Below, piece by piece: positions 30,462-41,148 of a DNA stretch of 64,000 bases. The stretch is from assembly GCA_029906195.1 (NCBI GenBank), contig JARWSJ010000001.1:310001-374000 (forward strand), given 5' to 3'. Each line of letters begins with the position of its first letter. The first letter of the stretch is position 1. The stretch is from Chitinophagaceae bacterium 26-R-25 (GTDB lineage: Bacteria > Bacteroidota > Bacteroidia > Chitinophagales > Chitinophagaceae). A model generated the notes under the pieces. It ran no database searches. It saw only the letters and a program-made list of their open reading frames with translations, and was not told where the DNA came from. The position numbers and the translations under genes were made by a program.

Positions 30462-33400
30462 TTAGTTTTGAATGAATGAATTGATGTCGACCACACTGCT
30501 GTTCCGGTTTCTCAACGCTTCTATGTAATCACTTTGAATGGTGATGGCCTGGGTAGTAAGCAATACCCATTCAAGGTAGTTTATTTCTCCATTCACAAAT
30601 TGCTTGTTGGCAGTGGTGGTGATTATCTCTGCATTTTTAAGGGCAGTGTGTGTGAAATATGCCACTGCTTTATCGTACTTGTAATAATTGGCCACAGCCA
30701 GTTTATAGGCGTTAGTAAAGGACTGAAGATTTACTTCGTAATCGTTGGTTGCGATGATCTGATTCGTTCGCGCAGCATTGATCCTTGCCTTTTGTCCGCC
30801 TGCAAAAATCGGTAACCCCACACCAACCTGCACAGATTGAAAACGCAGGGCGCTGTTATACTCTTTGTTATCGGCCCCCATTCCTTTCATGCCCATAATA
30901 TTATATCCTACAGAGAGGTCAGGCAGTAGCCTTGATCTCTCAACTGCCACGGCAGCGGCGGCAACCTCTCCCTGTTGACGGTAATATTGCATGACAGGAT
31001 GCGATGATAATTGGGTAGTATCAAGGTTCATGAGAGGGGTAAGCATTTCATTATCGTTCTCTGCAATAAAAACAGAAGGAGAGTTAAGCAGTAATTCAAA
31101 CTGTAGTTGCAACAGTTCCATATCCTGATCAAGTTGTGACAATTGCAGCGTGATCTGTCCGCGTTGGTTTTCTGCAGTTGTTTTTTCAAGCACATTGCTT
31201 TCTCCCTTATTGAAACGCAGGGTGGCTTTGTCGAGAAACGAAGCAAAGAGGCTATCGTTTTTTTGTAGCAGTTTCTTTTTTTGTTCGAGATAGAGCAGGT
31301 TCACAAATATCTCCGCTACCTTTTTTTTCAATGTAGTTTCAAGCATGCTTGCATTTAACACGCTGCTTTTCCATTCTTCTGTCAGGTAGGCTTTCTGGGT
31401 ACTATACACTTTTGGGAAATTAATGCTCTGGGCAACACTCAGTTTCGTATCTCCATAGTAACTGTTTATTTGTCCGTACTCCGCTGACACAGTCGTAGGC
31501 GGAATCATTTTCGCGGACTGAATCAATTTTTGCCTGTATTCGGCGCGCAGGCGCTCGTTACGCAGCGTCAGGTTGTTCTTTACGGCGGTATCAATGGCTG
31601 CCTTTAAGGTGATGGGCGTTTGTGCCTGTGTCTGTGTTTTGGAGAAAGCCATTAGTGCAGTCAACAATAAAAGTAACGTTGTTGTTGGCCCAGACTTTTT
31701 ATGAGTAACAACGTTTTTTTCAAACATGGTATAGAGTATTGGTAAAACAAACAGGGTGAGAAATGTTGCGATAAGTAATCCACCTATTACAACTGTAGCC
31801 AATGGTTTTTGCACTTCAGCCCCTTCTCCTGTGCTCAGGGCCATGGGCAAAAAGCCAAGAGAGGCAACAAATGCTGTCATTAACACGGGTCTTAATCTTA
31901 TTTTAGTTCCCTGCACTACGATGCGTTTGATATCAGTCAGGCCCTCGGCTTGTAACCTGTTAAACTCTGCGATAAGTACGATGCCGTTTAATACGGCAAC
32001 ACCAAACAATGCTATAAATCCTACACCTGCGGAAATACTGAACGACATGCCACGGGCAGCAAGGGCCAAAATGCCACCGATTGCTGACAATGGGATGGCA
32101 GTATATATGAACAATCCCTGTCTGATAGACTGAAACGTAAAATAAAGCAACACGAATATCAGGATAAGTGATACAGGAACGGCTATGTATAAACGCTTTT
32201 TTGCAGCTTCCAGGTTTTCAAAGGCACCTCCGTAACTAATATAATATCCGGGAGGTAATTTTATTTGTTGAGCAACTTTGGTTTGCAGCTCCTTCACGAG
32301 GCTTTGCACGTCACGGTCACGCACGTTAAAGCCCACGACAATTCTACGCTGCGAGTTTTCGCGTTGTATCTGGTTGGGGCCCTCAACAATATCTACATTC
32401 GCCACCGCACTCAAAGGAATACTTGCGCCCGAAGGTGTTTCGATTAAAAGATTCCGGACATCCACAATATCCTTTCTTTTGTTGCCGGTAAGCCTTACCA
32501 CAAGGTCAAATCTCTTTTCGCCTTCATATACTGTCCCACTTTTTTCGCCGGCAAAGGCGGCATTTACCACGCGATTAACATCGCTGATGTTTAAGCCATA
32601 CTGAGCGATCACGGCCCGGTTATACCGGATAACGATTTGAGGCATGCCGGTGATGGCTTCTATATATAATCCGCTGTTGCCTCGCACTGTGTTGCAGATG
32701 CGGCCAAGTTTATCGGCATAATGCGCAAGCGAGTCGAGGTCATCTCCAAATATCTTGCATACTACATCTTGTCTCGCACCGGAAATGAGTTCATTGAAAC
32801 GCATGGCAACCGGATATTGAAACCCGAATGTAACACCCGGTACCGCTTCCAGTTCTTTTGTCATTTTTGCCTCCAGCTCTTCATAGGTTTTTGCTGAGGT
32901 CCATTCCGTTCGATCTTTTAATATAATCATCATATCGGTGGCATCAACAGGCATCGGGTCCGTGGGAACCTCACTGCTACCGGTTTTTCCTACTATCTTT
33001 TGTATTTCAGGAAATTTTGCCAGCAAAATTTTTGATCCTTTTGATACTGCGTCAATGGAAGTATTAAGATTACTTCCAGGCAATACTCTTGTTTCCACTG
33101 CAAAATCTCCTTCGGGTAGTGATGGAATAAATTCACCGCCCAGCTGAAACAAAACAAAAACAGCAACAGCGAATAAAGCGAGGGTAACACCAATGATGCG
33201 TTTAGGAATTTTTAACGCCTTTTCTAATTTGTGCTGGTAAAAGCGTTCCAGTCGCTCCATCATTCTATCGGATAAAGTTTTTTTGTGGGATATCTTTTTG
33301 CTAATGAACAGTGCTGACATCATTGGAACGTAAGTAAGCGACAGTATAAAAGCGCCGGCCAGTGCAAACGCCACTGTTTGTGCCATTGGCTTAAACATTT

Positions 33401-34823
33401 TACCTTCTATGCCCTGTAATGTAAAGATGGGAAGATAAACGATGAGTATGATGGCTTCGCCAAAAACAGCGGCATTGAGCATTCTTGAGGATGTCCCAAA
33501 AACGATATTGTCCATTTGCGATTGCGATAATTCAGCAGTTTGGCTGAATTTTTTGCTGTGGTGAAGTCTGTGCATGACAGCTTCTACAATGATCACAGCA
33601 CCGTCAACAATAAGTCCAAAATCCAGTGCACCAAGTGACATGAGGTTACCGCTTACTCCAAACAGGTTCATCATGATGACTGCAAACAGCATTGCCAATG
33701 GAATCACCGAAGCTACCAGTAAACCGGCACGCAGGTTTCCGAGAAACAGCACCAGGACAAATATCACGATCAATGCACCTTCCAAAAGATTTCTAGAAAC
33801 CGTACTGATGGAATTATCTACCATTTTGGTGCGATCTAAAAATGGATCGATCATTACACCTTCTGGCAATGTTTTTTGAATTTTACCAATGCGCTCTTTT
33901 ATGTTTTTTATTACCTCGTTGCTATTGGCACCTTTCAGCATCATCACAACTGCGCCAGATACTTGTTGTTCTCCATTGTAGGTCATGGCTCCATATTGTG
34001 TAGCATTGCCAAATCTGACTTCGGCAACGTTGCCAATTAAAAGTGGCGCACCGTTGGGAAGGTTTTTAACGACAATATTTTTTATGTCATCCAGGTTGCC
34101 CACAAGTCCCTCGCTGCGAATAAACAATATGGTTGGGCCATTTTCAATGTAAGCACCTCCTGTGTTCGCATTGTTTTTTTCGAGAGCAGAAAATACATCG
34201 TTAATTGTAATATTGGCTGCCATCAGTTTGGATGGATCGACGGCGATTTCATATTGTTTTAAAAGTCCGCCAAAACTGCTAACCTCTGCTACGCCTTCAA
34301 CGCCCAGTAACTGACGGCGCACGATCCAATCCTGAATGGTACGGAGCTCCATTGCAGTGTACCGGTTTTCATATCCTTTTTTGGGCCTTACCGTGTATTG
34401 ATAGATTTCACCAAGGCCTGTAGTGACAGGCGCCAGTGTAGGGGTTCCAAAGCCTTTGGGTATTAGTTCCTGTACCTGTTGCAGGCGTTCGTTCACCTGC
34501 TGCCGGGCCCAGTATATATCTGTTGCATCATTAAAAACAATGGTTACCACGGAAAGACCGAAACGAGAAAAACTGCGCAGCTGTTTTAATCCGGGAATGT
34601 TATTGTTTACCTGCTCAATAGGAAAAGTGATTAGACGCTCTACATCGGGTGCGCCGAGAGCGGGTGCAATGGTAATTACCTGTACCTGGTTATTTGTGAT
34701 GTCCGGAACTGCATCTATTGGCAATCGCGTTAATTCATAAATACCGTATCCTACCAGTCCTAGCATAAAAAGGCTGACAATGAGTTTATTCTTTATTGAA
34801 AACTCAATAATTCTGTTAAACAT
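30462..34823 (-). CDS. CusA/CzcA-type RND metal efflux pump fused to a TolC-like outer-membrane channel
   Basis: One 1453-residue reading frame holds two normally separate proteins. Residues 1 to about 1040 are an RND heavy-metal pump with twelve membrane segments. FGLIVDGAVIIVEAV is the proton-relay motif of the CzcA/CusA class, and GVAVLNGIVLIAEF is its second repeat. A stretch near 1045-1065 (TTTLLLLLTALMAF...AQ) looks like an internal signal peptide. After it a TolC-family outer-membrane efflux protein of about 390 residues follows (ITLKAAIDTAVKNNLTL, VGVGLPIFAGGQKARI). Such fusions are known in Bacteroidota and the TolC part is probably cut off and exported. With the adaptor gene downstream all three pump parts are encoded by two genes. 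Confidence 0.93.
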   Translation of the reverse strand: MFNRIIEFSIKNKLIVSLFMLGLVGYGIYELTRLPIDAVPDITNNQVQVITIAPALGAPDVERLITFPIEQVNNNIPGLKQLRSFSRFGLSVVTIVFNDATDIYWARQQVNERLQQVQELIPKGFGTPTLAPVTTGLGEIYQYTVRPKKGYENRYTAMELRTIQDWIVRRQLLGVEGVAEVSSFGGLLKQYEIAVDPSKLMAANITINDVFSALEKNNANTGGAYIENGPTILFIRSEGLVGNLDDIKNIVVKNLPNGAPLLIGNVAEVRFGNATQYGAMTYNGEQQVSGAVVMMLKGANSNEVIKNIKERIGKIQKTLPEGVMIDPFLDRTKMVDNSISTVSRNLLEGALIVIFVLVLFLGNLRAGLLVASVIPLAMLFAVIMMNLFGVSGNLMSLGALDFGLIVDGAVIIVEAVMHRLHHSKKFSQTAELSQSQMDNIVFGTSSRMLNAAVFGEAIILIVYLPIFTLQGIEGKMFKPMAQTVAFALAGAFILSLTYVPMMSALFISKKISHKKTLSDRMMERLERFYQHKLEKALKIPKRIIGVTLALFAVAVFVLFQLGGEFIPSLPEGDFAVETRVLPGSNLNTSIDAVSKGSKILLAKFPEIQKIVGKTGSSEVPTDPMPVDATDMMIILKDRTEWTSAKTYEELEAKMTKELEAVPGVTFGFQYPVAMRFNELISGARQDVVCKIFGDDLDSLAHYADKLGRICNTVRGNSGLYIEAITGMPQIVIRYNRAVIAQYGLNISDVNRVVNAAFAGEKSGTVYEGEKRFDLVVRLTGNKRKDIVDVRNLLIETPSGASIPLSAVANVDIVEGPNQIQRENSQRRIVVGFNVRDRDVQSLVKELQTKVAQQIKLPPGYYISYGGAFENLEAAKKRLYIAVPVSLILIFVLLYFTFQSIRQGLFIYTAIPLSAIGGILALAARGMSFSISAGVGFIALFGVAVLNGIVLIAEFNRLQAEGLTDIKRIVVQGTKIRLRPVLMTAFVASLGFLPMALSTGEGAEVQKPLATVVIGGLLIATFLTLFVLPILYTMFEKNVVTHKKSGPTTTLLLLLTALMAFSKTQTQAQTPITLKAAIDTAVKNNLTLRNERLRAEYRQKLIQSAKMIPPTTVSAEYGQINSYYGDTKLSVAQSINFPKVYSTQKAYLTEEWKSSVLNASMLETTLKKKVAEIFVNLLYLEQKKKLLQKNDSLFASFLDKATLRFNKGESNVLEKTTAENQRGQITLQLSQLDQDMELLQLQFELLLNSPSVFIAENDNEMLTPLMNLDTTQLSSHPVMQYYRQQGEVAAAAVAVERSRLLPDLSVGYNIMGMKGMGADNKEYNSALRFQSVQVGVGLPIFAGGQKARINAARTNQIIATNDYEVNLQSFTNAYKLAVANYYKYDKAVAYFTHTALKNAEIITTTANKQFVNGEINYLEWVLLTTQAITIQSDYIEALRNRNSSVVDINSFIQN

Positions 34824-35615: not shown

Positions 35616-37235
35616 TTAAAAATAGATTTTCAATCCCGCTGCAATACTAAATGCATTTGGATAGGATTTTACAGCAGCATTATTATTGATTGTTCCCAAT
35701 GCAAAATTTGCTGAAGGCGTAATGTCGATGGCAAGTCGTTTTCCGGCATTGTACTGAAATGTGATACCGGTAATGGAATTTAGATACATTTTTTTCAATC
35801 CCTGGATTGATTTTATGCTCTGCTTATCATTGCTGGAACCGGTTTCAACATTGGTTTGTATTTTTTCGTCGATTAAAAAATTAACCATAGCACCAACTGT
35901 TGGAATGATATTGAATTTCCCATTTAGAAAACGATAATTAATTGCCACTGGAATACCGATGTATTGCAAAATGCTGCTATTTTCTGTCGCTAATATGCTG
36001 TCTCCTGCAGCTGGGGTGCCGTTCTTGGTTGACAAATAGGTATACCCGGATGAGAAATCAAACCGGTATTGTATACTGCCATTGTCGTTGCGGGCATAAA
36101 TTCTTTTGGGGTTAATTTCAGCTATTTTATAAATGTAGCTGACGCCAGATTGTAACGACCAGCGTTTCTTCAACGGAATGTCGATAAGCAGACCAAACGA
36201 GTACGAACGCTGATGGTTTTCTCCATTTTTTATATCGTCAGCGTCATCTTGTCGTTGTCCTCCCATGCCAATATCATCGTTATCTACAATGTGGTTAAAG
36301 TTAAATTGCGGGGCTACAAAAGGCATCAACGAATAATGAACAGTATTTTGTTTTTTGGCAACAACTGTAGGTGCGGATTGTATGTCAGGCTGTAGCAATG
36401 GTGCATGAGTATTTACGTCATAAACCAAACTGGAAGGCATGCGTTGTATATTGGCAGAATGCAAATTCTTTTCTTTTTTGCCAGCCTCAGTTTCGGTTGC
36501 TGATCGTTGGCCCATTAAAGCCTGGTGCGGCGAGGCAATAACATTCAACGTTGTTTCATTTGATGGCAATTGATCTTCTGCTGAATTAAAGTCCGTGTGT
36601 TTTGCAGGATTTTGTGCGTGAACAACGATGCCTGTTTTCACAGCGGGCGTCATTTTGTTTTTTATGAGGCCTGGATGAAAATTGCTGACAACTTTGATTT
36701 CAACAGCGTTGTTTATTTTCTCTTTTTTGTAATAGAGATTTGGTTTTGTTGCCGACACTGCATTGCTGGAATATTTTACAGCATCGGGCTTTGCAGTTGG
36801 ATTGGCTGCAGGCCGAATTTTATCGACCGGTTGTTTTGTATTATTGTCAACCGTATTGTTGGCAGCAATTTCACTGGAATCTTTTCCAGCTGTGTTATTT
36901 CTCCTGGTAAAAGGGACTGCGATGATATTGTCGTGCGCAGCTTCACTTTTGTTATTCATTTTATTTTTGGAAATATTTGTATTTCCAAAGTCCGCATTGC
37001 TACTAAACTTGTTTTTGTAAGTTGTTTGCAATTCATATGCAATTGTTCCCAGTAAAAATAAAAGCAGGACAGCAGACAACCTTTTCAAACGGTTGTATTT
37101 TCTTTTGGTGCTTGCTTCGCTTTTTTTATCGAGGGTGTGATCAATTTCGTTCCAGACTTTCTCTGGAGGCATTTCTTCATGCGCTTCAATTGAATCACGA
37201 AACAAATTTTCAATATCGAGTAAATTTCTACCCAT
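35616..37235 (-). CDS. Dual-membrane-spanning anti-sigma factor (Dma-like) with C-terminal beta-barrel
   Basis: A 539-residue protein with an unusual build. Residues 1-50 are a cytoplasmic, charged domain (MPPEKVWNEIDHTL), 53-68 a single inner-membrane helix (LSAVLLLFLLGTIAY), 70-300 a disordered Asn/Thr/Lys/Pro-rich linker, and 330-539 an outer-membrane beta-barrel ending in AAGLKIYF, with strand patterns like those of PorT/OmpW-type barrels. The linker is long enough to cross the periplasm. It starts 2 bases after the ECF sigma gene stop, so it is the obvious anti-sigma partner. Proteins of this design, called Dma, have been reported in Bacteroides as sensors of outer-membrane state. The present assignment is by architecture only. 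Confidence 0.82.
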   Translation of the reverse strand: MGRNLLDIENLFRDSIEAHEEMPPEKVWNEIDHTLDKKSEASTKRKYNRLKRLSAVLLLFLLGTIAYELQTTYKNKFSSNADFGNTNISKNKMNNKSEAAHDNIIAVPFTRRNNTAGKDSSEIAANNTVDNNTKQPVDKIRPAANPTAKPDAVKYSSNAVSATKPNLYYKKEKINNAVEIKVVSNFHPGLIKNKMTPAVKTGIVVHAQNPAKHTDFNSAEDQLPSNETTLNVIASPHQALMGQRSATETEAGKKEKNLHSANIQRMPSSLVYDVNTHAPLLQPDIQSAPTVVAKKQNTVHYSLMPFVAPQFNFNHIVDNDDIGMGGQRQDDADDIKNGENHQRSYSFGLLIDIPLKKRWSLQSGVSYIYKIAEINPKRIYARNDNGSIQYRFDFSSGYTYLSTKNGTPAAGDSILATENSSILQYIGIPVAINYRFLNGKFNIIPTVGAMVNFLIDEKIQTNVETGSSNDKQSIKSIQGLKKMYLNSITGITFQYNAGKRLAIDITPSANFALGTINNNAAVKSYPNAFSIAAGLKIYF

Positions 37236-37237
37236 GC

Positions 37238-37795
37238 TTACATAAAATTTTGTTGGGCAATCCTTTCATTTTTTTTAATGGCCTTTTGTAAAATTGCTTT
37301 TGCGTCGGATAAATTGGATTTAGACGTTCCCTCGGAAACGCCCAGGAGTTCTGCAATTTCCCGGTGTTTCATACCCTCAAAAACATACAGGTTGAAAACC
37401 ATCCTGTAGGCTGGGGGAAGCAACTGCACCAGTTTTACCATCTCTTTTACATCCAAGTGAGCATAGATGACTTCTGTGTCCGCCTGTTCGGTTTTCAAAT
37501 CCTCAATATTAACAACTGCGTGCAGCTGTGCTTTGCGACGATATTTATCCAAGGCGCAGTTAACCATTATTCTTCTGACCCATCCTTCAAAAGACCCGTT
37601 GAAACTAAATTCAGTCAAATGCTCAAACGCTTTGATAAATCCTTCCTGCAACACTTCTTCGGCATCTTCCCTGTTTCTTGAGTAGCGCAGGCATACTACA
37701 AACATTTTAGGCGCCAGCAGTACATAGAGATCCTTTTGAGAATGGCGCTCCCCTTTAATACACCTGTGTAAAAGTTTGTTTAGCTGTTCTTGCAT
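37238..37795 (-). CDS. ECF sigma factor paired with the envelope-spanning anti-sigma protein
   Basis: A 185-residue ECF sigma factor. Region 2 shows RYSRNREDAEEVLQEGFIKA and the DNA-melting segment FEGWVRRIMVNCALDKYRR; region 4 shows LLPPAYRMVFNLYVFEGMKH and the helix-turn-helix REIAELLGVSEGTSKSNLS. It probably controls envelope or outer-membrane homeostasis genes, including itself. The gene overlaps nothing but sits only 2 bases before the anti-sigma start, which implies translational coupling. Divergent from the lipoprotein/thioredoxin operon, with a 139-base shared spacer. Confidence 0.93.
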   Translation of the reverse strand: MQEQLNKLLHRCIKGERHSQKDLYVLLAPKMFVVCLRYSRNREDAEEVLQEGFIKAFEHLTEFSFNGSFEGWVRRIMVNCALDKYRRKAQLHAVVNIEDLKTEQADTEVIYAHLDVKEMVKLVQLLPPAYRMVFNLYVFEGMKHREIAELLGVSEGTSKSNLSDAKAILQKAIKKNERIAQQNFM

Positions 37796-37934
37796 TCGGT
37801 TATTGTAAAGATGCTAATCAGTTGTTAATTGGTTGGGCGAAGGATGAAATCTTTTTTTTGAACCCAACTGTTTCTCTAAAATGGTACATCTATCAGTTTG
37901 CATTGCTTTGGTAAAACGAAACATACCCTCATTT

Positions 37935-38180
37935 ATGAAGCCATTGATTGTTAATTGCCTGTTATCGGCCATTTTACTGTTACTGTTATCATGTGATGAA
38001 CAGGAAACAAATGGATGTGATCACAGCGAAGTCCAATTACCTGAGTTTTCACAATCCGGTAACTATATAGTTGGTGTAGGGGTAGCTGGTGGATCGTCAA
38101 CCGGTTTCACAAAGAGGATTGTAAAAGCGGAGTTGCTTCAATCCCTTTACACGTTACCGTTTGCCAGGAGTTTTTTTTGA
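37935..38180 (+). CDS. Small lipoprotein of unknown function
   Basis: An 81-residue protein starting MKPLIVNCLLSAILLL with a lipobox-like LLSCDEQ at about residue 20. The remainder, NGCDHSEVQLPEFSQSG followed by a Gly-rich stretch, has no recognised fold. It precedes the thioredoxin/ApbE group by 83 bases on the same strand and may belong to that operon. Confidence 0.55.
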   Translation: MKPLIVNCLLSAILLLLLSCDEQETNGCDHSEVQLPEFSQSGNYIVGVGVAGGSSTGFTKRIVKAELLQSLYTLPFARSFF

Positions 38181-38263
38181 TATTGGTGAATAGCAAGCCT
38201 GTTTTTTTTAGACCTGCTTTTTCTTACACATGATCCTTTTAAGTGTTACTAAATTTTGAATCC

Positions 38264-38707
38264 ATGAAATTTTTGGCATTGTTACTTTTGTCGTCCATTA
38301 CTGTTATTGATTTGTCGTGGCAGACAGATTTTGAAAAAGCAAAACAAACTGCACATGAAAAGCATCATCTTATCTTATTGAATTTTTCCGGCTCTGACTG
38401 GTGCGGCCCGTGCATCCGGTTGCACAAAGAAATATTTGACAGCGACGGTTTTAAAAAAGTTGCGGATGAGCAATTGGAGCTGGTGAATGCAGATTTTCCA
38501 AGACTTAGAAAAAACCAGCTCAGCAAAGAACAACAGCAACAAAATGACAAACTTGCTGACCGGTACAATGCACAGGGAAATTTTCCGGCGACAATTCTAC
38601 TGGACGCTGACGGAAAAGTGATCAAAGAATGGGATGGATATCCCAGTCATGGTATTACGGTTTTTATTGATGAACTAAATACGGCCATACATGCTGCCAA
38701 CCAGTAA
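38264..38707 (+). CDS. Secreted thioredoxin-fold protein
   Basis: Exported thioredoxin-like oxidoreductase of 147 residues. A signal peptide (1-17) is followed by the active site WCGPC at 46-50 within LLNFSGSDWCGPCIRL and the cis-Pro loop FPATILLDADGKV. It should reduce or shuffle disulphides, or serve ApbE-linked redox partners, in the periplasm. The 3' end overlaps the start of the ApbE gene by 17 bases, which indicates coupled translation. The family resembles thioredoxins that travel with ApbE, DUF4266 and DUF3570 genes. Confidence 0.9.
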   Translation: MKFLALLLLSSITVIDLSWQTDFEKAKQTAHEKHHLILLNFSGSDWCGPCIRLHKEIFDSDGFKKVADEQLELVNADFPRLRKNQLSKEQQQQNDKLADRYNAQGNFPATILLDADGKVIKEWDGYPSHGITVFIDELNTAIHAANQ

Positions 38708-39644
38708 ATGGGCAATGCCAGCCGTGTTGCATAAACAATCAATGAAACTGATGGGCAACCAGTTTGAGATAAGCGTAGTGGGCCGGTGCGTTGATTGGGC
38801 CAACAAAAGAATTGAAGCTGCCATTGCCGAAATTAGGCGAATAGAAGATTTGCTGACTACCTTCAGCGATACAAGTGAGACGTTTAAAATAAACAATGCT
38901 GCAGGTATTCATCCTGTTAAAGTAAGTGAAGAAACTTTCAGGCTAATTGAAAGATCTATTAGGATATCTGCGATAACACAAGGTGCATTTGACATCACGT
39001 ATGGCTCAGTAGACAAAAGCCTCTGGAATTTTGATACAAACATGAAGCAGTTGCCAGATGCGCGCACCGCTAAAAGAATGGTGCGGCTGATCAATTACCG
39101 CAATATTATACTGGATGAAAAAGAAAGCACCGTCTTTTTAAAGGAGAAAGGCATGCGCATTGGATTTGGTGGTATTGGTAAAGGGTATGCAGCAGAAAGA
39201 GCAAAAACCGTTTTGCAAGATATGGGTGTGTATAATGGCATCGTGAATGCGTCCGGCGATCTTACTTCATGGGGAAGACAGCCAGATGGAAATCTTTGGA
39301 CAATTGGCATTGTAAATCCAAACCTGTCGGGAAAAATATTCTCTTACATGAATGTAACCGATATGGCGGTTGCTACTTCCGGCAATTACGAAAAATTTAT
39401 TGTTGTAAATGGGGTAAAGTATTCGCATACCATTGATCCCCGTACCGGCCTGCCGGTTAAAGGAATTAAAAGTGTTACCATCATTACAACCAACGCCGAA
39501 ATTGCTGATGCGATGGCAACGCCTGTAACCATTATGGGAGTGCATGCTGGACTTGATATGATTAACCAGATAAATAATATGGAAGCGATCGTTATTGATG
39601 ACAGCGACGTGATTTATACAACCAAAAATTTACACTTCAAGTAA
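38691..39644 (+). CDS. apbE: FAD:protein FMN transferase (ApbE family)
   Basis: Enzyme of up to 317 residues that moves FMN from FAD onto a Thr or Ser of target proteins, with Mg2+. Seen: LMGNQFEISVVG start of the fold, FSDTSETFKINN, GAFDITYGSV (normally AFDPTVGP), GIGKGYAAERA, VNASGDLTSWG, SGNYEKFIVVNG and HTIDPRTGLPV, the last being the conserved HxIDPxTG motif. No signal peptide or lipobox is visible, while most ApbE proteins act outside the membrane; export may rely on another start or the enzyme may be cytoplasmic. The start overlaps the thioredoxin gene. No flavinylation target with a clear DGATxxT/SGAT motif was found nearby. Confidence 0.92.
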   Translation: MLPTSKWAMPAVLHKQSMKLMGNQFEISVVGRCVDWANKRIEAAIAEIRRIEDLLTTFSDTSETFKINNAAGIHPVKVSEETFRLIERSIRISAITQGAFDITYGSVDKSLWNFDTNMKQLPDARTAKRMVRLINYRNIILDEKESTVFLKEKGMRIGFGGIGKGYAAERAKTVLQDMGVYNGIVNASGDLTSWGRQPDGNLWTIGIVNPNLSGKIFSYMNVTDMAVATSGNYEKFIVVNGVKYSHTIDPRTGLPVKGIKSVTIITTNAEIADAMATPVTIMGVHAGLDMINQINNMEAIVIDDSDVIYTTKNLHFK

Positions 39645-39656
39645 TACAACAACAAT

Positions 39657-39881
39657 ATGAACAAAAGCACCTCATTATTATCTGTGCTGCTTCTGGCCGG
39701 CTCACTCTTTACCATTTCATGCGTACATGTAAAAGAGTACCAAAAAAGCAAGATCAACGATGCAGACATGTCACTAAGTGCACGAAAAAGTCAAAAGACA
39801 GAATCTAATTTTCAAAATTACCGAGAGGGTGCAGCAGGGGCAAATGGCGGCAAAACAGGCGGTGGCTGTGGTTGCAATTAA
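39657..39881 (+). CDS. DUF4266 small lipoprotein
   Basis: A 74-residue lipoprotein with lipobox FTISC (Cys at about residue 22), the VHVKEYQKSKINDADM segment and a Gly-rich end with GGKTGGGCGCN. These features are those of DUF4266, a small family of unknown role that is almost always encoded beside DUF3570 and ApbE genes. Only 12 bases separate it from apbE and 25 from the DUF3570 gene. Confidence 0.88.
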   Translation: MNKSTSLLSVLLLAGSLFTISCVHVKEYQKSKINDADMSLSARKSQKTESNFQNYREGAAGANGGKTGGGCGCN

Positions 39882-39906: not shown

Positions 39907-41148
39907 ATGAAAAAAATCTGCCTTACACTGATAGGTATTTATATAATGTTTATTGGCGCATTTGCGCAAAAAGCAACCAGGCCCGATACAGTTTATGAAG
40001 TAAAGCCACTTCACCTGGATGAAATAAATCTTGTATCCAGTTATTACAAGCAGGAAGGTATTCATTCTGCCGTAACAGGTGGTATTGGAAACGAGCATGT
40101 GGTAGATCTTTCAAATGGCCTTGATGTTAAATTTGTTGGTTGGGATGCCCGTCATAACAAACACAGTCTGGATTTGGGTTTGGGTTTCGATCATCATACC
40201 TCTGCATCGTCCGCCTATGTTTCAAAATCTGGCGCTTCTAAAACCGATGGCACACGCATTTACCCTTCTGTAGAGTACACAGTTGAAAATGTCAGGGGCA
40301 ATAGTTTCGGGTTCGGCGCGTATTATTCCACCGAGTACAATTACAAGTCAGTGGGATTGGACCTGCACGCAGGAAGAAAGCTAGGCACCAATACAGAAAT
40401 CGACGGAAAAATTTCCGGTTTTTTTGATAAAGTAAAAATGATTTATCCTTCGGAACTGATTCCTGCTCCAACTATTGTTTCACCAAGTACTTATACAACG
40501 GCCAGCGGCAGAACTATTACTATTGATGGACAATCTTCCAAAGACAACATTCCTTCAAGTCCAAGAAATACGTATTCTGCATCACTTACACTTTCACAAA
40601 TTGTCAATACGCGCATGCAGTTCAGCGTGATGCTTGACATGGTGGCGCAGAACGGGTACCTCGGGTTGCCATTTCATCGGGTATATTTTGCTGATGGCAG
40701 CGTACATGTAGAGAACCTGCCTGAAACGAGAAAAAAGTTGCCAATAGGAGTTCGGTTAAATTATTTTTTGGGTGACAAAGTTGTCCTGAGAAGTTACTAC
40801 CGTTATTATATGGATGACTGGGGATTGCGTGCGCACACTGCTGAGCTGGAGATACCGGTTAAAGTTACTTCGTTCTTTTCTATTGCTCCATTTTACCGGT
40901 ATTATACGCAAACAGCCATTAAATATTTTGGCGCATATGGTACCCATACTGCCAATGATCAATACTATAGCAGCAACTATTCTTTGTCTGCATTAACGAG
41001 CCAGTTTGTAGGTGCCGGCATTCACCTTGCACCGCCCAAGGGAATACTGAACCAGCATTTCAGTGCTCTTGATGCACGGTTTGGCCATTATACGCAATCA
41101 ACTGAATTGTATGCAAACGTACTTTCTTTTGCCTTCACCTTTAAATAG
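39907..41148 (+). CDS. DUF3570 outer-membrane beta-barrel protein
   Basis: A 413-residue exported protein with signal peptide (1-20, ending GAFAQ) and a long run of amphipathic strands ending VLSFAFTFK, typical of an outer-membrane barrel. EVKPLHLDEINLVSSYYKQ, DVKFVGWDARHNKHSLDLG and HHTSASSAYVSKSGASKTDG are motifs of DUF3570. Family members co-occur with thioredoxin, ApbE and DUF4266 as a redox or transport module whose purpose is not established. Last gene of the operon; the spacer after it has no clear terminator. Confidence 0.9.
   Translation: MKKICLTLIGIYIMFIGAFAQKATRPDTVYEVKPLHLDEINLVSSYYKQEGIHSAVTGGIGNEHVVDLSNGLDVKFVGWDARHNKHSLDLGLGFDHHTSASSAYVSKSGASKTDGTRIYPSVEYTVENVRGNSFGFGAYYSTEYNYKSVGLDLHAGRKLGTNTEIDGKISGFFDKVKMIYPSELIPAPTIVSPSTYTTASGRTITIDGQSSKDNIPSSPRNTYSASLTLSQIVNTRMQFSVMLDMVAQNGYLGLPFHRVYFADGSVHVENLPETRKKLPIGVRLNYFLGDKVVLRSYYRYYMDDWGLRAHTAELEIPVKVTSFFSIAPFYRYYTQTAIKYFGAYGTHTANDQYYSSNYSLSALTSQFVGAGIHLAPPKGILNQHFSALDARFGHYTQSTELYANVLSFAFTFK

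Follow-up and report, generated by a model that had tools for sequence, protein, structure and literature searches.

In FecR/TonB-dependent cell-surface signaling, an event at the outer membrane is passed to an extracytoplasmic function (ECF) sigma factor by way of a receptor and an anti-sigma factor that are separate proteins. Closer to the locus reported here is the recently described Dma class, whose outputs have so far been described, in the accounts available, in gut Bacteroidales only: Dma1 and Dma2 of Bacteroides thetaiotaomicron, each encoded beside the gene of an ECF sigma factor (Das1 and Das2), have an N-terminal sigma-binding segment, one helix, a long disordered tether and a C-terminal β-barrel (PMC13088901). 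Reo of Bacteroides fragilis and Phocaeicola vulgatus has the same architecture and a gene for a cognate sigma factor, EcfO, whose regulon comes on when the anti-sigma factor is lost; oxygen exposure and antibacterial toxins are the cues reported, and the regulon includes NigD proteins (PMC9308784, PMC13114119). Across Phocaeicola and Bacteroides, EcfO or Das is set free when Reo or Dma is lost, with outer-membrane stress as the proposed cue (PMC9308784, PMC13088901, PMC13114119). We report here a pair of this kind in a 64,000-nucleotide stretch of the genome of Chitinophagaceae bacterium 26-R-25 (GCA_029906195.1, contig JARWSJ010000001.1, positions 310,001 to 374,000; hereafter the window). 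In contrast to FecR systems, its 539-amino-acid (aa) anti-sigma candidate is predicted to reach from the cytoplasm to the outer membrane as one chain. We consider it quite likely that sigma and anti-sigma factor form a Dma-class switch, which drives its own genes and a divergent flavin operon from two back-to-back promoters.

The Dma architecture is already known as a kind; what is new is the predicted output. The published outputs of Dma1 and Dma2 are vesicle formation, NigD1 and polysaccharide utilization genes (PMC13088901), and the available descriptions of EcfO/Reo contain no flavin operon (PMC9308784, PMC13114119), whereas a flavin/thiol operon is the predicted target in the window. EcfO of B. 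fragilis is itself described as an oxidative-stress factor (PMC13114119, citing text), which makes a redox output less odd, and the lipoprotein or Rieske protein encoded first in the operon recalls the lipoprotein theme of the NigD outputs. It is likely that a Dma-class factor of the Chitinophagaceae controls flavin/thiol electron transfer: its sigma factor would read CCCAACC-TTT-(spacer)-CATCT at essentially one divergon in the host genome, and in relatives would serve the same redox operon in trans, along with Rieske, DUF4382 and PepSY-like secreted proteins. Regulon and promoter motif together form a new, specific and testable prediction in which we have good confidence. If true, a class so far associated with vesicles and glycan genes would gain a redox role as well as a promoter code.

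The Das-like sigma gene (37238-37795, minus strand; 185 aa) matches PF08281 (E 7e-16) and PF04542 (E 5e-13), sigma-70 regions 2 and 4. After 2 bp it is followed by the gene of the 539-aa protein (35616-37235, minus strand), which is assigned to the Dma family by a PF13568 match, an AlphaFold2 model and profile matches to Dma-type proteins of Bacteroidota. Divergently, on the plus strand, the first gene is a small lipoprotein-like open reading frame (ORF; 37935-38180, 81 aa from the ATG at 37935) with an LLSC sequence that we take to be a lipobox-like motif; its longer form, from 37881, matches no Pfam family, and in relatives its position is taken by a DUF4382 lipoprotein or a Rieske protein. 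It is followed on the same strand by genes for a secreted thioredoxin-like (Trx) protein (38243-38707, with an ATG also at 38264; PF13899, E 2e-11), an ApbE flavin transferase (38691-39644; PF02424, E 1.5e-81), a small DUF4266 protein with a C-terminal CXC (39657-39881; PF14086, E 1.4e-18) and a DUF3570 protein of the flavinylation substrate family (39907-41148; PF12094, E 1e-33); the order is conserved for the Trx and DUF4266 genes. A first-pass annotation of this DNA had noticed a Trx/ApbE operon divergent from the pair; the operon is real and longer than was claimed, by the lipoprotein-like ORF, DUF4266 and DUF3570.

With the ApbE, PF13899, PF14086 and PF12094 genes together, the window holds a flavinylation cluster of the described Trx/ApbE/DUF4266/DUF3570 type, which has the same four families in one run, the CXC end and the flavinylation motif; in these clusters, which occur with and without DsbD, DUF3570 is the ApbE substrate and DUF4266 the small CXC protein (PMC8238504). 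Two conserved motifs are described for DUF3570 flavinylation (PMC8238504); the window protein has one [S/T]GA[S/T] site, SGAS at residue 108. The available account of the clusters names no regulator and calls the function of the DUF3570/DUF4266 system uncertain (PMC8238504), whereas the ECF/Dma switch proposed here offers it a candidate regulator. Titles and abstract openings of the literature searched yielded no Dma-type regulator of ApbE/DUF3570 clusters, a scope that does not establish absence from print.

The relatives examined come from a sigma-based contig search, which confirmed 216 sigma relatives, the best 80 of which were examined; the query sigma factors were themselves Dma-paired, which favors paired relatives. 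A common promoter was sought upstream of 78 sigma genes (the window's and 77 others). The commonest dyad, CCAA-18-CATC, occurs in 34 of these 78 upstream regions, whereas no dyad exceeds 11 in any of five shuffles, and the common promoter reads CCCAACC-TTT-(spacer)-CATCT. Allowing up to one mismatch, CCAAC-(16-18)-CATC points towards the sigma gene in 54/78, mostly 27-60 bp before the called start (a count made without a shuffle control), and away from it in 25/78. A weight matrix was trained on 58 sigma-upstream sites with the window left out; 58 of 77 upstream regions exceed the 99th percentile of shuffles, a figure that is partly circular since the same 58 sites trained the matrix, a circularity that does not touch the dyad count. 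In the window the best minus-strand site (37808-37837, CCCAACC...CATCTT, 23.3 bits) is the predicted promoter of the sigma and dma genes, its CCAAC block beginning 41 bp ahead of the sigma ATG, and the best plus-strand site (37863-37892, CCCAACT...CATCTA, 20.1 bits) is the predicted promoter facing the divergent operon. The two lie back to back in one intergenic region (matrix positions 37836 on the minus and 37864 on the plus strand).

Genome-wide, CCCAACYNWTT-N13-CATCTW matches exactly at the two sites of this intergenic region and nowhere else, and with one mismatch at two further places; the genome-wide patterns were drawn up after the window sites had been seen, which in part accounts for these two matches being exact. 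With a spacer one base shorter and up to one mismatch there are three matches against none in the control. At up to two mismatches the whole genome holds 38 matches against 45 in a reversed control, and a looser pattern gives seven, one of them the window's, against nine in its control. Six further matches were inspected as possible regulon members beyond the locus in the host genome, and none was accepted as a target: five fall within ORFs that run on the opposite strand (two in one gene), and for the sixth (L252), outside any called ORF, no same-strand ORF follows within 1.5 kb.

Among relatives the motif extends beyond the sigma genes. Over 83 loci (1.08 Mb), 142 sites score at least 17 bits versus 13 in shuffled DNA, a count that includes the training sites and one locus entered twice (L106 and L133, one site each). 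If the sites act as promoters, those facing away from the sigma gene should go with a divergent neighbor; they were found in 20 of 52 loci where the neighbor is divergent and in two of 22 where it is co-oriented (Fisher p 0.009; 6 of the 80 loci were dropped for want of an upstream gene or of a long enough interval). Besides flavin operons, sites precede, among others, genes for DUF4382 lipoproteins, Rieske, PepSY-like, DUF5686 and TonB-plug proteins, LytTR regulators and a secretion-tail-domain protein, with Pfam run on one example for most groups. In L185, L187 and L190 a gene for a 235-aa response-regulator-like protein stands behind the dma gene with its own copy of the motif; that of L185 is Response_reg plus LytTR.

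An alternative reader of the motif would be a different ECF sigma factor encoded in the host genome, controlling the sigma-dma genes and the redox operon alike. There is room for such a factor in a 6.5-Mb host genome with about 65 sigma-like ORFs of this kind, and the link of the motif to the window sigma factor is itself predicted from sequence. Yet the sequences from which the motif was derived lie upstream of sigma genes of this clade in many genera, and the motif stays below 17 bits before four other Dma-partnered sigma genes of the host genome (best 14.5) and before the seven Das-like sigma genes tested from other Bacteroidota, each beside a Dma-type partner gene (best 0.7). ECF sigma factors, moreover, usually regulate their own genes. 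Control by another sigma factor hence seems highly improbable, and the window sigma factor remains our reading.

The strongest result for the regulon concerns operons distant from the pair. From genomes matching Dma strongly we took 16 DUF3570 places not adjacent to the pair, dropping L267 at a contig end and keeping L254 with its 625 bp of upstream sequence; the controls were one DUF3570 place each in the first 20 genomes of the family with DUF3570 and no Dma match, as judged by a scan that scored up to five candidates per genome, so that a few controls may hide a Dma. The matrix had been trained on sigma upstream regions only and the 17-bit limit was fixed before this test, while the 300-bp distance was taken from the result. 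Among the loci from genomes with this Dma clade, 6 of 15 (5 of 13 genomes) have a site of at least 17 bits upstream of the operon, as against 0 of 20 controls (Fisher p 0.003 by loci), and without the distance limit the counts are unchanged, the best score among genomes without Dma being 13.2 bits. The six sites (L253, 25.6 bits; L255, 22.6; L257, 24.3; L258, 19.7; L260, 22.7; L265, 27.8) stand 60-289 bp before the first core gene, L257 and L258 being in one genome.

In cis, 10 of 82 loci have the flavin operon inside the flanks examined around the pair (the window, L112, L138, L140, L142, L154, L155, L195, L196 and L212), with only Trx and ApbE inside the locus in L142 and an incomplete or broken gene set in L155 and L195. 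DUF3570 occurs in 7 of 80 examined relatives' loci where about 0.09 would be expected from a rough family frequency, a loose figure, the loci being related. A site of at least 17 bits leads to the operon in six of the ten linked loci (the window, L112, L138, L140, L142 and L154).

A number of observations tell against control of the operon by the sigma factor. Four linked operons (L155, L195, L196 and L212) and 9 of the 15 pair-distant ones have no such site, and many relatives have the site in front of different genes (DUF4382, Rieske, PepSY-like, DUF5686, LytTR), so the flavin operon would be one target among several. The window operon itself begins with an orphan ORF through which read-through is assumed, and L138 has a gap of about 600 bp between its first gene and Trx. 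Because the loci are related, the p values should be read loosely. On a quick tree operon linkage is scattered, needing 8 changes as compared with 9.6 for shuffled labels, with 22 of 500 shuffles as low. A single origin of the linkage was considered on this basis, the 8 changes being barely below shuffled labels; the linkage forms neither one clade nor clearly independent origins.

These points bear on the alternative that the Dma pair is real and the operon a mere neighbor, the site serving the small lipoprotein gene alone and Trx/ApbE/DUF4266/DUF3570 having a housekeeping promoter of their own. The four linked operons without a site and the L138 gap fit this, as does the first gene, which varies between genomes (orphan ORF, DUF4382, Rieske); NigD lipoproteins, besides, have been reported among the outputs of EcfO and Dma1 in Bacteroidales (PMC13088901, PMC13114119). 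However, trans sites stand 60-289 bp before the first core gene in 6 of 15 Dma-clade loci and in none of the 20 controls, the L142 site lies 143 bp before the Trx gene and 7 kb from sigma, and in L112, L140 and L154 Trx follows the first gene after about 20-100 bp, while no terminator was seen between the small ORF and Trx in the window. We therefore regard a mere neighbor as unlikely, and the divergent redox operon as probably a target of the sigma factor.

The layout of the 539-aa protein had been described in the first-pass annotation as a cytoplasmic anti-sigma region, one inner-membrane helix, a disordered linker and an outer-membrane barrel in one protein, and it is borne out by Pfam, the AlphaFold2 model and structure matches. 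The model, a structure prediction that the annotation had proposed as a check, was built from a 59-row alignment (the window protein and 58 relatives) and gives a helix, a disordered tether and an eight-stranded barrel. Residues 1-52 (37080-37235; this and the following segments on the minus strand) are the putative cytoplasmic sigma-binding segment, picked out by N-terminal profile matches and by being the best-conserved part; the model places helices at residues 9-16 and 25-77. A hydropathy peak from residue 53 and the second of these helices mark residues 53-77 (37005-37079) as the predicted inner-membrane helix. Residues 78-301 (36333-37004) form the predicted periplasmic tether, the model being of low per-residue confidence (pLDDT) and devoid of secondary structure over residues ~78-300; disorder of the linker thus stands, while the claimed length of 230 residues becomes 224 by the present boundaries. 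The predicted outer-membrane barrel, residues 302-539 (35619-36332), has eight long strands over residues 302-538 with pLDDT mostly above 90, matches PF13568 (OMP_b-brl_2) over residues 338-504 (E 1e-7), and resembles OmpA, NspA and OmpW in structure (Z ~15, root-mean-square deviation 2.6-3.1, 154-170 residues aligned). Mean identity of the 58 relatives to the window protein is 40% in residues 1-52, 27% in the helix, 11% in the tether and 34% in the barrel.

The tether varies from 111 to 266 residues (median 195) among the 59 proteins of the clade. The same N-terminal segment also heads family proteins of 737 to 1050 aa (L289-L295, L301), whose C-termini look barrel-like by eye; an ECF sigma gene directly precedes such long proteins in 14 of 14 loci inspected, shorter variants included. 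Pfam finds no family in the long proteins of L289 and L291 and only a weak barrel match in the 492-aa protein of L296. The varying tether and the 737-1050-aa proteins with the same N-terminus argue against a tether acting as a ruler of fixed length. In another variant (L302:2915-4379), a 300-aa partner adjoining an ECF sigma gene carries the N-terminal anti-sigma-like motif APP..W..I...LD twice in tandem and has no Pfam family.

The coupling of the barrel protein to an ECF sigma gene, likewise claimed from the window alone, recurs throughout: the gene after sigma encodes a Dma relative in all of the 80 loci examined (best 80 of 216), and in a set of 21 Dma relatives' loci a sigma gene lies immediately upstream in 20, the 21st ending at a contig edge. 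Chance or mis-annotation of the pair is ruled out by the pairing together with the profile and structure results. In a plasmid collection 519 records match the sigma factor; the first seven of the listed matches were opened, all from Bacteroidota, and the next gene is annotated as an outer membrane beta-barrel or porin family protein in the six that are annotated, while in the unannotated seventh the ORF after sigma also matches the Dma profile. The Bacteroidales records among them look like chromosome pieces labeled plasmids. A redox setting recurs on an Emticicia plasmid, pEMTOL02 (L132), whose Dma-type pair has genes for Rieske, YceI, CcsA and c-type cytochrome proteins as neighbors.

Likeness to Dma proteins, which the annotation had proposed, holds at the level of both profile and architecture. 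A profile of 21 proteins (the window's included) matches all of seven proteins from other Bacteroidota (E 1e-18 to 3e-5 in the seven-sequence set), and four Bacteroidales proteins rank within the first 10 of 618 with an N-terminal profile and within the first 7 with a barrel profile. One of the matched proteins is from a Bacteroides finegoldii locus (L128) with the gene order sigma, barrel protein, DUF4943, DUF4858, nitronate monooxygenase, the order of BT_1559 to BT_1555, the dma2 operon (PMC13088901); the sigma factor of that dma2-type locus is 38.7% identical to the window's. It is well supported that the 539-aa protein is a member of the known Dma kind. The proposal of a Dma-type candidate in another family of the phylum stands as to the host, a member of the Chitinophagaceae, but such pairs outside Bacteroides are common and not rare: of the 294 genomes of this family, 105 have a match to the Dma profile with E no higher than 0.001, many in the N-terminal or barrel part alone. 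Segetibacter koreensis, S. aerophilus and Ginsengibacter hankyongi are among the family members, S. koreensis and G. hankyongi being Chitinophagaceae. Neither of two genomes examined from the host's own genus matches the profile.

A different account of the pair would make the 539-aa protein a barrel protein with an unusual signal-anchor N-terminus that never regulates sigma, the fixed gene order reflecting co-expression only. Sigma binding by the N-terminus is something we infer, and Pfam finds no anti-sigma domain there. Against this account, the N-terminus is the best-conserved part, the pairing is invariant in the best 80 relatives, and the N-terminal profile reaches Bacteroidales Dma-type proteins and, weakly and with similar scores, two Pfam-confirmed FecR proteins of the host genome (L068 and L100). 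These FecR matches agree with an anti-sigma role without being peculiar to Dma; the window protein itself has no match to PF04773, the FecR domain, up to E 1. Loss of an architecture-matched anti-sigma factor also activates the sigma regulon in P. vulgatus and B. thetaiotaomicron (PMC9308784, PMC13088901). An anchor without regulatory function is thus barely credible, and the anti-sigma reading is kept below.

By homology to Dma and Reo, the window protein should likewise release its sigma factor, with the barrel as the outer-membrane end. The barrel would sit in the outer membrane, the tether would cross the periplasm and the single helix the inner membrane, and the N-terminal segment would hold the ECF sigma factor until a disturbance of the outer membrane or envelope, probably redox-linked, ends this hold. 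The freed sigma factor would then transcribe from the two back-to-back CCCAACC-(spacer)-CATCT promoters, one serving the sigma and anti-sigma genes and the other the lipoprotein/Trx/ApbE/DUF4266/DUF3570 operon, whose product may be a thiol- and flavin-based electron-transfer system outside the cytosol. Architecture, pairing, the common promoter motif and its position before the operon, here and in some relatives, are computed results; sigma binding, barrel insertion, the signal, the mode of release and transcription are deduced. With a promoter motif, a small predicted set of target genes and a plausible redox output now at hand from a second family, the Dma class can be tested with simple reporters.

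The host genome holds about four long Dma-like partners, the window's included. The window sigma factor ranks first of the 65 sigma-like ORFs with the clade profile, which contains that sigma factor itself, and the next four (L043, L059, L039 and L098) have Dma-like partners: that of L098 has a barrel match above the Pfam cut-off and that of L059 one just under it, while that of L039 is long and without a Pfam match, with weak N-terminal and barrel profile matches. Beside the second-best sigma (L043:4920-6341) is a partner of 284 aa with a strong N-terminal match and no Pfam family, hence no recognized barrel. Elsewhere in the window, at 30462-34823, an RND pump (PF00873, residues 5-1034) and an outer-membrane efflux domain (PF02321, residues 1270-1448) are fused in a single-frame ORF of 1453 aa.

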